64,000 bases of DNA from Poseidonibacter antarcticus. GTDB lineage: Bacteria > Campylobacterota > Campylobacteria > Campylobacterales > Arcobacteraceae. The stretch covers positions 186,001 through 250,000 of the forward strand of contig NZ_RCWF01000002.1 in NCBI RefSeq assembly GCF_003667345.1, read 5' to 3'. The translations under genes and the position numbers were made by a program. This document shows positions 10,846 to 13,992 of the stretch, piece by piece; position 1 is the stretch's first letter; the number at the start of each line of letters is the position of its first letter. The notes beneath the pieces were generated by a model, which ran no database searches, was not told where the DNA came from, and saw only the letters and a program-made list of their open reading frames with translations.

Positions 10846-12693
10846 CTAGTAAATGGTATCCATATCAATAGAAGCCATTGGTGAAGTAATTGTATGAAGA
10901 GAAGTAAGTAATGCTTTTATATTTTTTGAACGTAATATTATTTCATATCTATATTTATTTGCCATTTTGAAAATAGCACATTGTCCAAATCCTACTACTT
11001 CTATATCTTTGTTTTGTTTTAATAAATGTACATATTTATCTAGCTCATCTTTTACTTTTAGACCATTTGTATGTGCAAATATTACTTTTGCCATTTTTAG
11101 ATACGGTGGATATAAATCTTCTCTAAATTCTAGCTCTGATTCTAAAAAGTCTTGATAATTCGATTCATTTAAATAATAATCAAAAAACTCTTGATTTTTT
11201 GTTTGAATGATTACTTCACCCTCACCTTTTCTTCCACTTCGTCCTGATATTTGAATAAGTAAAGATAAGGCTCGCTCTCTTGCTTTATATGAATTCATAT
11301 TTAATAAAGAATCAATTCCTAAAACAACTGCTAATTTTACATTATGATAATCATGACCTTTTGACAACATTTGTGTTCCAACTAAAATATCAATTTCACC
11401 TTTATTAAATTCATTTAATATTGTTTTTAATTGTGTATTAGTTCTTACTTTATCTCTATCAAATCTTTTGATTATTTTATCTTTAAAAATTTCTTTTAAC
11501 TCTTCTTCTATTTGTGCAGTACCAACTCTTAAGTTTTTTATAACTCCTGTATGACAAGAAGGACAAAATTCAGGAATTTGCTGTGTATATCCACAATAAT
11601 GACATTTTAGTGCTAAATCATTTTTATGTAAACTCATTGAAACAGAACAATAAGGACATTCAACTGATTTTCCACAAGAAGTACAAATTTGGTACTTAAA
11701 GTTTGCACGCGTTGGCAAGAATACTATTACTTGATTTTTAGATTCTAGTGTTTTTGAGATTTTATTTAAAACTTGAATAGATAAACTAGCATCGCTATCA
11801 TCAAAAGTGTATTTTTTTTTAGTATTGTGATAAGTTTGTGTTAATCTTATAAATGGAATTTTATAAAAAGAACTTGTCGAAACTGTTGCACTTCCTAATA
11901 CTAATTGAATATCAAATTTTTTAGCTATATAAATACTCAAATCTTTTGTATGGAATCTTGGTTTTGAATCACTTTTATATGATTCATCGTGTTCTTCATC
12001 TACTACAATTACACCTAGGTTTTCATATGGTAAAAATAAAGCTGACCTAGCACCTGCTATTAGTTTTATACTTCCTTCTTGAAGTCCTTGAAGTATTTGT
12101 GTTTTTTTCTTTTTTGTGATTTTTGAATGCCAAATAGCTACACTATTTCCAAAAACTTTTTCTAATCTTTTTTGCATTTGTGGAGTTAGTGAAATTTCAG
12201 GCATTAATAAAATTGCCTGTTTGTTATCATTTAAATGTTTTTCAATGATTTTAATATAGATTTCTGTTTTTCCTGAACCTGTATTTGCAAATAATAGTGC
12301 TTGTTTCTTTTCATTTAAAAAATTTAAAGCTTTTGTTTGTTCATTTGATAATTCTATTTTACAATCAAAAGTTTGCTTTTCTTCTAGCTTTTTTATATCT
12401 TTTGAAAAAGGATTATAAACACTTAATGCTTCACCAAGAGAACATACATAATATTGAGAAACAAAGTGAGAAGTTTCGAGCATTTTTTTATCATAATATT
12501 CATTTGTGATTTCATCAATACTTACACATTTAAACTTTGGTTTTTCTACAGATTTTACAACAACACCAAGGCTTAAAACTTTTCGATTACGAAGTTTTAC
12601 TCCTACTTTTGTACCTATATTTATTTCTTCTTCGCTTTGGTATGTAAGATTATTAAGTGGAGATTTTAATAAAGCAATTTCATAGTAAAACAC
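10846..12693 (-). CDS. priA: Primosomal protein N' (replication restart helicase PriA)
   Basis: 615 residues, shorter than the E. coli protein. Walker A ANTGSGKTE at 136-144, helicase box DEEH at 232-235, and eight zinc-binding cysteines as four C-x2-C pairs near 345-385, followed by the C-terminal helicase motifs (GTQMLSKGHD, QISGRSGRKGEG). PriA recognises stalled forks and reloads the replicative helicase. The start is GTG; the pseudopilin stop overlaps it by one base (TAGTG), so translation is coupled. The N-terminal DNA-binding domain is shortened but present. Confidence 0.95.
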   Translation of the reverse strand: MFYYEIALLKSPLNNLTYQSEEEINIGTKVGVKLRNRKVLSLGVVVKSVEKPKFKCVSIDEITNEYYDKKMLETSHFVSQYYVCSLGEALSVYNPFSKDIKKLEEKQTFDCKIELSNEQTKALNFLNEKKQALLFANTGSGKTEIYIKIIEKHLNDNKQAILLMPEISLTPQMQKRLEKVFGNSVAIWHSKITKKKKTQILQGLQEGSIKLIAGARSALFLPYENLGVIVVDEEHDESYKSDSKPRFHTKDLSIYIAKKFDIQLVLGSATVSTSSFYKIPFIRLTQTYHNTKKKYTFDDSDASLSIQVLNKISKTLESKNQVIVFLPTRANFKYQICTSCGKSVECPYCSVSMSLHKNDLALKCHYCGYTQQIPEFCPSCHTGVIKNLRVGTAQIEEELKEIFKDKIIKRFDRDKVRTNTQLKTILNEFNKGEIDILVGTQMLSKGHDYHNVKLAVVLGIDSLLNMNSYKARERALSLLIQISGRSGRKGEGEVIIQTKNQEFFDYYLNESNYQDFLESELEFREDLYPPYLKMAKVIFAHTNGLKVKDELDKYVHLLKQNKDIEVVGFGQCAIFKMANKYRYEIILRSKNIKALLTSLHTITSPMASIDMDTIY

Positions 12694-13127
12694 TATTCAA
12701 TCTCTTTACATATTTCAAGACTACTTGTACAGTTAAAACTATTATTTTCAAGAGAAAATAGTACACTTTTATTAGAAGATAAAATATATTCATAAGAACT
12801 ATCTGATAGTTTTATCCATTTACCTATTTCTTTAAGTGAAGAAGTAGTAGAAAGTATATTAAAGTCTATGATTTTATCAAATAATATTTCATTATTAGTA
12901 TTAGAACTTGCATCATCTAAACTATCTATAGAAATAACTTCATTTAATAATGTTTGTTTTGTTTTTAATTTACTAATATTATTTCTAATAATTGCAAGAT
13001 TAGATTTTAATTCTGTGATTTTTGAGTTACTCATTATTTTATAGAATTTTGGTATTGCAAATGTTCCAATTATAGCAATAACAGCAATAACGATTATTAA
13101 TTCTAATAATGAGAAACTTTTTCTCAT
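12693..13127 (-). CDS. Type II secretion/type IV pilus-like pseudopilin
   Basis: 144 residues. A short charged leader (MRKS) precedes FSLLELIIVIAVIAIIGTFAIP, a class III prepilin signal with the conserved glutamate at position 5 of the mature protein, followed by an amphipathic helix and an unassigned C-terminal domain with cysteines near 130 and 138. A prepilin peptidase would cut after the serine. It starts in overlap with the ZapA-like gene and overlaps priA. No other pilus genes are nearby, so its machine is not shown. Confidence 0.85.
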   Translation of the reverse strand: MRKSFSLLELIIVIAVIAIIGTFAIPKFYKIMSNSKITELKSNLAIIRNNISKLKTKQTLLNEVISIDSLDDASSNTNNEILFDKIIDFNILSTTSSLKEIGKWIKLSDSSYEYILSSNKSVLFSLENNSFNCTSSLEICKEIE

Positions 13128-13336
13128 TAAAATCTTGCTAATTTATTTGAAAGTTGATTAATATCTTCTTTAAATGAAGAATATTCTTGAGTAATTCTTA
13201 TATATGCAGCTAATAAATCTTTAGTATCATTATTCTTTTCTTGATCTAAGAATTTAGTAAGCTCCATTTCCATATTGCTATCTACATTAATTGTATATGC
13301 CATATTATTAATATGAAAAATAATATCTTTATTCAC
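13127..13336 (-). CDS. Small ZapA-like protein
   Basis: 69 residues. The pattern is like a miniature ZapA: a beta hairpin start (IIFHINNMAYTINV), an acidic helix, then a long helix with KDLLAAYIRITQEYSSFKED that matches the spacing of the ZapA helix preceding its coiled coil. ZapA bundles FtsZ at midcell. The protein is shorter than typical ZapA (about 85-110), so the coiled coil is curtailed. It overlaps the ZapB-like coiled-coil gene by 8 bases upstream and the pseudopilin by one base. The call is inference from pattern and gene order. Confidence 0.5.
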   Translation of the reverse strand: MNKDIIFHINNMAYTINVDSNMEMELTKFLDQEKNNDTKDLLAAYIRITQEYSSFKEDINQLSNKLARF

Positions 13337-13529
13337 CTTTTTGCGCCTTTATTAGAGTTAATGTACTATCTATTCTTAGAAACATATCTTGATTATTTCT
13401 AGTTAACTCGTCATTGTCATTTTGTAAAGAATCTATCTCTTGTCTTAATGATTGATTTTCTAATTTTAGTCTCTCATAATCATGTAATAGTTTATCAATT
13501 TTATTATTTAATGTTTCTATTATTTCCAT
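13329..13529 (-). CDS. Short coiled-coil protein, ZapB/TIGR02449-like
   Basis: 66 residues forming a single coiled coil from about 5 to 60, with heptads of Leu/Ile (ETLNNKIDKLLHDYERLKLE, then SLRQEIDSLQNDNDELTRNN). Length and pattern recall TIGR02449, the small coiled-coil protein encoded just upstream of zapA in pseudomonads, and E. coli ZapB. Here it also lies just upstream of a ZapA-like gene, overlapping it by 8 bases. ZapB links the Z-ring to the nucleoid. Coiled coils converge easily, so gene order is the stronger part of the evidence. Confidence 0.55.
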   Translation of the reverse strand: MEIIETLNNKIDKLLHDYERLKLENQSLRQEIDSLQNDNDELTRNNQDMFLRIDSTLTLIKAQKGE

Positions 13530-13581: not shown

Positions 13582-13992
13582 CTACTTATTTTCTTCATTT
13601 ATAAATATGTTTGCAACCTGATAAAGCATTGCAACTGATTTTCCCCATTGTGAATAATCATCAACATCTTTTAAATCAAAACCAAACTTTTCAGTTATTT
13701 TCTTTATTAAATCTTTTTCATTTAAATGAAAGTTATTATCAATATGAATTAATATCATAAGTTCTAAAAGAATAATTCTTTGACTTCTTGTTGTTTTATA
13801 ATTATTTAAATTTTCTTCTAAACAAAAAGTATCAATATCAAATGCATCAACATTCTCAATTCCCATTTCCAAACAATAACTTAATATAATTTCTTCTTCT
13901 CTATGCCCATAACTATTATCAATTCTAGCTAAGTAATGAGCTAATTGTAAAAATGAAAACTTTTCTCTTGTTTCTAATTGCATTAATAACAT
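13582..13992 (-). CDS. TerB-like all-helical protein
   Basis: 136 residues, cytoplasmic, all helical by appearance. Two halves resemble the TerB (tellurite-resistance B) repeat: about 20-50 (ARIDNSYGHREEEII) and about 75-110 (LIHIDNNFHLNEKDLIKKI), each with an acidic helix followed by E/D-E. TerB-fold proteins bind metals or act as scaffolds; no function can be given. It lies 52 bases upstream of the ZapB-like gene and probably shares its transcript. AGGA lies eight bases before the ATG. Confidence 0.55.
   Translation of the reverse strand: MLLMQLETREKFSFLQLAHYLARIDNSYGHREEEIILSYCLEMGIENVDAFDIDTFCLEENLNNYKTTRSQRIILLELMILIHIDNNFHLNEKDLIKKITEKFGFDLKDVDDYSQWGKSVAMLYQVANIFINEENK

Follow-up and report, generated by a model that had tools for sequence, protein, structure and literature searches.

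Gene structure of the locus

The question raised by this locus is whether two very small overlapping genes, lying upstream of a pseudopilin gene and priA, are genuine and encode counterparts of the Z-ring factors ZapB and ZapA, as an earlier note made from the DNA letters had proposed. The locus belongs to a 64,000-nucleotide stretch of the Poseidonibacter antarcticus genome (contig NZ_RCWF01000002.1, positions 186,001 to 250,000), hereafter called the window, and comprises the following features:

10846..12693, minus strand: priA, replication restart helicase (NF004069)
12693..13127, minus strand: pseudopilin, 144 aa, with a type IV pilin-like N-terminus (N_methyl, TIGR02532); positional counterpart of Cj0683
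13127..13336, minus strand: ORF2, minimal ZapA-like protein, 69 aa, GTG start (AlphaFold model, structural matches, hhalign, conservation)
13329..13336, minus strand: 8-nt overlap of the ORF1 end and the ORF2 start (from the sequence), likely reflecting translational coupling
13329..13529, minus strand: ORF1, ZapB-like short coiled-coil protein, 66 aa, ATG start (Pfam ZapB score, relatives, shuffles)
13582..13992, minus strand: small TerB-like protein upstream of ORF1 (TerB, 17.9 bits, below the cut-off)

The two genes, of 66 and 69 residues, were found exactly where the earlier note had placed them, and both are genuine rather than chance reading frames, since relatives of ORF2 were detected in 97 of the 101 genomes of the family (Arcobacteraceae) and in 275 of the 298 Campylobacterota genomes, representing 53 of 59 genera (67-sequence phylum profile, E ≤ 0.05). 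The pseudopilin gene shares 1 nt with ORF2 (TAATG) and another 1 nt with priA (TAGTG); together with the 8-nt overlap between ORF1 and ORF2, this series of stop and start codon overlaps suggests translational coupling. The pseudopilin scored slightly below the cut-off of Pfam N_methyl (20.8 against 21.2 bits) and above that of the NCBIfam family TIGR02532 (17.4 against 16.3 bits), and the priA product reached 912 bits with NF004069 from NCBIfam (cut-off 767). A promoter scan returned a number of sites not above the chance expectation. The pseudopilin gene and priA probably share the transcript of the ORF1/ORF2 pair, but no result indicates that they act together with it.

Conservation and gene order of the pair

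Comparisons with five related loci yielded dN/dS values of 0.07-0.16 for ORF2 and 0.04-0.21 for ORF1 and, judging from these ratios, both genes are under strong purifying selection. The ORF2 relatives are strongly diverged within the phylum, many members showing 12-30% identity. The 23 of 298 genomes that gave no ORF2 match were considered as genomes lacking the pair; at priA, however, seven of the 14 loci read in them held a diverged pair (two of these seven ORF2s were judged by eye), indicating that true absence is rarer than 23/298.

Gene order was read at 94 loci from a dozen families, 83 of which yielded ORF2 at E ≤ 1e-3. ORF1 was located directly upstream of ORF2 and on the same strand in 75 of the 83 loci; 4 nt was the commonest overlap among these 75, and overlaps of 4, 8 and 11 nt recurred in relatives. 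Downstream, the pair was followed by pilin and priA (n = 41), by priA alone (n = 18), by pilin alone (n = 9) or by neither (n = 15), and the Helicobacter-type loci had priA and no pilin. Nearly all the Arcobacteraceae loci read kept the order ORF1-ORF2-pilin-priA, in most cases preceded by a TerB-like gene. Since pilin and priA were both missing beside the pair in 15 of the 83 loci, the conserved unit is the ORF1/ORF2 pair, its linkage to pilin and priA being common but not obligatory. The coupled operon with a pseudopilin and priA, which the earlier note had regarded as unusual, is indeed present, but this genome is not special in that respect, the arrangement being common throughout the phylum.

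At 49 of the 83 loci the pair is preceded by a divergent uvrB, a position occupied in the window by the TerB-like gene and a MarC-like gene instead. Like the window (13582-13992, minus strand), most Arcobacteraceae loci have a TerB-like gene upstream of ORF1; in the rest of the phylum, no such gene was observed next to the pair.

A probable counterpart in Campylobacter jejuni

In Campylobacter-type genomes (a genus assigned from gene order and size) the genes were arranged as uvrB (divergent), ORF1, ORF2, pilin and priA, with ispG also present where the stretch extended far enough. Cj0683 of C. jejuni is a pilin-like competence protein, encoded in an operon immediately before priA (PMC10046745). 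This placement of a pilin directly before priA is that of the Campylobacter-type genomes, so that by position ORF2 would correspond to Cj0682 and ORF1 to Cj0681, and Cj0681-Cj0682-Cj0683-priA would repeat the same four-gene order, with the coil gene first, then the small gene, the pilin gene and priA. The two differ in that the papers found make no link between Cj0681 or Cj0682 and Z-ring factors. In a TraDIS study Cj0682, described as having "no functional domains predicted", was listed as essential in every C. jejuni and C. coli strain tested and not in the C. lari strain (PMC10077673), although short genes and polarity on priA may yield false essential calls. A search of the open-access literature found no relevant paper on ZapA in Epsilonproteobacteria, which does not by itself prove novelty. 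Cj0683 has been called unique to Campylobacter (PMC10046745), yet pilin-like genes occupy this position across many Campylobacterota families.

The operon context raises the alternative that the pair has its role in DNA uptake or in restarting replication, its products being small cytoplasmic proteins that assist the competence pseudopilin or PriA. In this genome the genes of the pair overlap in series with pilin and priA, one or both of which follow the pair in 68 of the 83 loci; moreover, Cj0683 functions as a pilin in competence, and an effect of PriA on transformation is reported from Neisseria (PMC10046745). The pair was nevertheless kept together at the loci with neither gene, and the Helicobacter-type loci have priA without the pilin. 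Deletion of Cj0683 is tolerated, but Cj0682 has been reported as essential (PMC10046745, PMC10077673), and neither the ZapA fold nor the ZapB profile described below indicates competence. A role of the pair in uptake or restart thus appears improbable.

ORF1, the ZapB-like coil

ORF1 encodes a short protein made of a single coiled coil with no further domain, and only coiled-coil families matched it; both the sequence and the alignment bear out its earlier description as one continuous coil. Its score with Pfam ZapB (PF06005) was 31.5 bits, equal to the cut-off of 31.5 and hence borderline, in an alignment beginning at residue 1. ZapB matched 29 of 38 phylum-wide ORF1 relatives at E ≤ 1e-3, the next family matching five, and ten shuffles of ORF1 that preserved its heptad composition scored 19.2 bits at most, indicating that the match exceeds that of a generic coiled coil. 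Coiled-coil similarity in ORF1 is weakly specific. The best NCBIfam match was TIGR02449, a family that the earlier note places ahead of zapA in pseudomonads, aligned over nearly its full length (3-59 of 65) with 26.0 bits, far below the cut-off of 55.4; this family matched 13 of the 38 relatives at E ≤ 0.01, and no paper on it was found in the open-access literature. ORF1 had been likened beforehand to both ZapB and TIGR02449, and only the first comparison reaches its cut-off.

ORF1 shares with ZapB a continuous short coiled coil that aligns from both N-termini. It differs in having a conserved C-terminal motif (D.L.KIE.vLg phylum-wide, RIDSTLTLIK in Arcobacteraceae) and in that its gene adjoins a ZapA-like gene, whereas zapA of E. 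coli is flanked by ygfB and the 6S RNA gene. The Arcobacteraceae ORF1 is about two heptads shorter than that of other families. In Arcobacter butzleri the gene beside terB was already named zapB (B_01653) in a 2026 paper, which gave no name to the gene separating it from B_01651, a type II secretion gene (PMC13276354); B_01651 is presumably the pilin.

Sequence evidence for a ZapA-like ORF2

ORF2 alone gave no significant family match in Pfam or NCBIfam, Pfam ZapA (PF05164) did not match the window ORF2 at all, and searches of NCBIfam with its relatives returned weak, scattered matches only. Pfam ZapA was the best match of the phylum consensus (18.1 bits, profile positions 1-75 of 88) and of a single homologue, L104 (19.2 bits, positions 1-73 of 88), against a cut-off of 23.8. 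None of the single ORF2 sequences examined passed any family cut-off, and since that of Pfam ZapA was tried and not reached, ORF2 is termed ZapA-like here and not a member of PF05164.

A conventional ZapA elsewhere in this genome was considered, and no protein scored above the Pfam cut-off; the same held for all of 150 Campylobacterota genomes.

The 67-sequence ORF2 profile used for the phylum search was compared by hhalign with a ZapA profile, a shallow one of seven mostly gamma-proteobacterial sequences, giving a score of 30.0 (E 3.9e-5, probability 70%) and a collinear alignment from residue 1 and the hairpin through the second helix. The best score among 400 column shuffles of each profile (800 in total) was 19.3, and the reversed-profile control scored 10.5. 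Profile similarity to ZapA, one of three features whose joint absence would have spoken against the proposal of the earlier note, is therefore present at that E-value. The score was 30.7 without the Arcobacteraceae sequences and 20.3 with these alone, suggesting that the Arcobacteraceae ORF2 represents a more diverged clade. Lone ZapA sequences gave no clear score with the ORF2 profile, and extra diverse ZapA sequences sought in IMG/VR were not found. Searching PDB sequences with the ORF2 profile returned nothing useful, the top row being a repeat artefact.

Predicted structure of ORF2

The AlphaFold (AF2) model of ORF2 (pLDDT 93.7) consists of strands at residues 3-9 and 12-18 and helices at 20-29 and 38-67, that is, a beta-hairpin (3-18), a short helix (20-29) and a long helix (38-67), in agreement with the beta start and long helix anticipated from the sequence. 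A second model, of a Campylobacter-type homologue (locus L193) and built with a phylum-wide alignment, showed the same topology of two strands and two helices (pLDDT 91.6). When this second model was searched against the PDB with Foldseek, ranks 1 to 9 were all ZapA chains (E 0.26-0.70, prob 0.66-0.87), the next unrelated entry having a prob of 0.13; with VIA-align, ranks 1 to 6 were all ZapA entries, with Z of 4.5-5.2 over 68-71 of 79 residues, followed by 3.4. The window ORF2 model gave the same picture with both programs, although weaker, ZapA taking VIA-align ranks 1, 2, 3, 5, 6 and 7. With all the Foldseek E-values above 0.1 and Z of about 5, these scores are modest even for a small protein and not significant alone; the assignment rests on a single family occupying the top ranks over the full length. 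The ZapA head fold was thus found in the predicted monomer, in two models.

ORF2 shares with known ZapA proteins (PF05164; E. coli 4P1M, P. aeruginosa 1T3U/1W2E, Geobacillus 2MMV, Klebsiella 9ISJ/9ISK) the hairpin and two helices in the same order, as well as being a small cytoplasmic protein, and they are its top structural matches in the PDB. It differs in being shorter, as the earlier note had pointed out (here a median of 74 aa against 109 in E. coli), in its short first helix and in falling below every curated cut-off. The second helix has 30-33 residues in the monomer models and is much shorter than that of E. coli ZapA; the C-terminal coil is mostly absent, so that a dumbbell tetramer is not assured. 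A further difference is that Cj0682, its likely counterpart, is reported to be essential; E. coli zapA is dispensable. In one member of a Helicobacteraceae-like family (L212, 4476-5180, minus strand), ORF2 has 234 aa, comprising a ZapA-like head and a long extra C-terminal tail.

A second alternative is that ORF2 is a nucleoid-associated or other small dimeric protein that merely resembles ZapA, for instance through an Lsr2-like dimerisation hairpin. The Lsr2 dimerisation domain (PF11774) weakly matched six of the 67 ORF2 relatives, with a best E of 0.009, against four relatives matched by ZapA; the phylum consensus scored 16.4 bits with it, under the cut-off of 29.6, and the Lsr2 structure 4e1p appeared at VIA-align rank 16 (Z 2.6 over 43 residues). 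This match is limited to the hairpin and first helix, however; ORF2 has no room for the DNA-binding tail, its long second helix is explained by ZapA and not by Lsr2, and the ZapA structures rank well above Lsr2, all of which makes this alternative very unlikely.

FtsZ and the proposed role of the pair

FtsZ was nearly universal, being found in 100 of 101 genomes. In E. coli, the extreme N-terminus of FtsZ, above all F2, docks into a groove on the ZapA head; this motif is reportedly conserved where ZapA is present and not conserved in bacteria without it (PMC12754632). Outside the Helicobacteraceae-like family, the FtsZ N-terminus of Campylobacterota was similarly aromatic-acidic (for example MSEFLVEE, MEAFNIEE, MSGFTVEE, MDNLFKVDD); within that family the tail phenylalanine is missing, and ORF2 persists in a more diverged form. 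As far as it can be read from sequence, this FtsZ tail pattern fits a ZapA-like ORF2. The joint occurrence in that family of a changed FtsZ tail and a more diverged ORF2 (FtsZ loci L243-L292) is a possible sign of co-evolution. ZapA residue N60, which contacts F2 of FtsZ, is apparently K or R in the ORF2 alignment, as read by eye.

The least probable alternative takes ORF1 for a generic coiled coil and supposes that ORF2, though of ZapA fold, lost its Z-ring function and gained a phylum-specific role. It would accord with the very short second helix, the changed groove residue, the lack of any family cut-off passed and the strong divergence even inside the phylum, but is countered by the close association of ORF2 with a ZapB-like coil and by its almost universal occurrence together with FtsZ.

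That same close pairing and presence alongside FtsZ make a division role the best fit. We consider it quite likely that ORF2 represents a ZapA that has been shortened and has diverged, with ORF1 as its ZapB-like partner; the two would together bind FtsZ filaments and hold them in the Z ring. The ZapA/ZapB identity put forward in the earlier note is supported by the profile similarity and predicted monomer fold of ORF2 and by the ORF1 score at the ZapB cut-off. Under this reading, ORF2 would be a ZapA head (beta-hairpin, short helix and a helix of about 30 residues) almost without the extended C-terminal coil that E. coli ZapA carries. The two proteins would be made together from their overlapping genes; ORF2 may dimerise and its head would bind FtsZ filaments, and the ORF1 coil, by binding ORF2, would bridge the heads, holding the filaments together at midcell. 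We suggest far more tentatively that the Campylobacterota ZapA has been stripped to little more than an FtsZ-binding head, forming no dumbbell tetramer, with the co-translated ZapB-like coil cross-linking the filaments, and that the pair might therefore be an obligate unit that Campylobacter cannot do without, in contrast to the zapA of E. coli.

The mechanistic question that follows is whether a ZapA without most of its coil could cross-link the Z ring, provided that a ZapB-like protein is almost invariably co-produced as its partner. A function is also proposed for a small unannotated gene, the likely counterpart of Cj0682. By standard annotation ZapA is seemingly missing from the whole phylum Campylobacterota, in which a protein with a predicted ZapA fold is nonetheless present almost everywhere.
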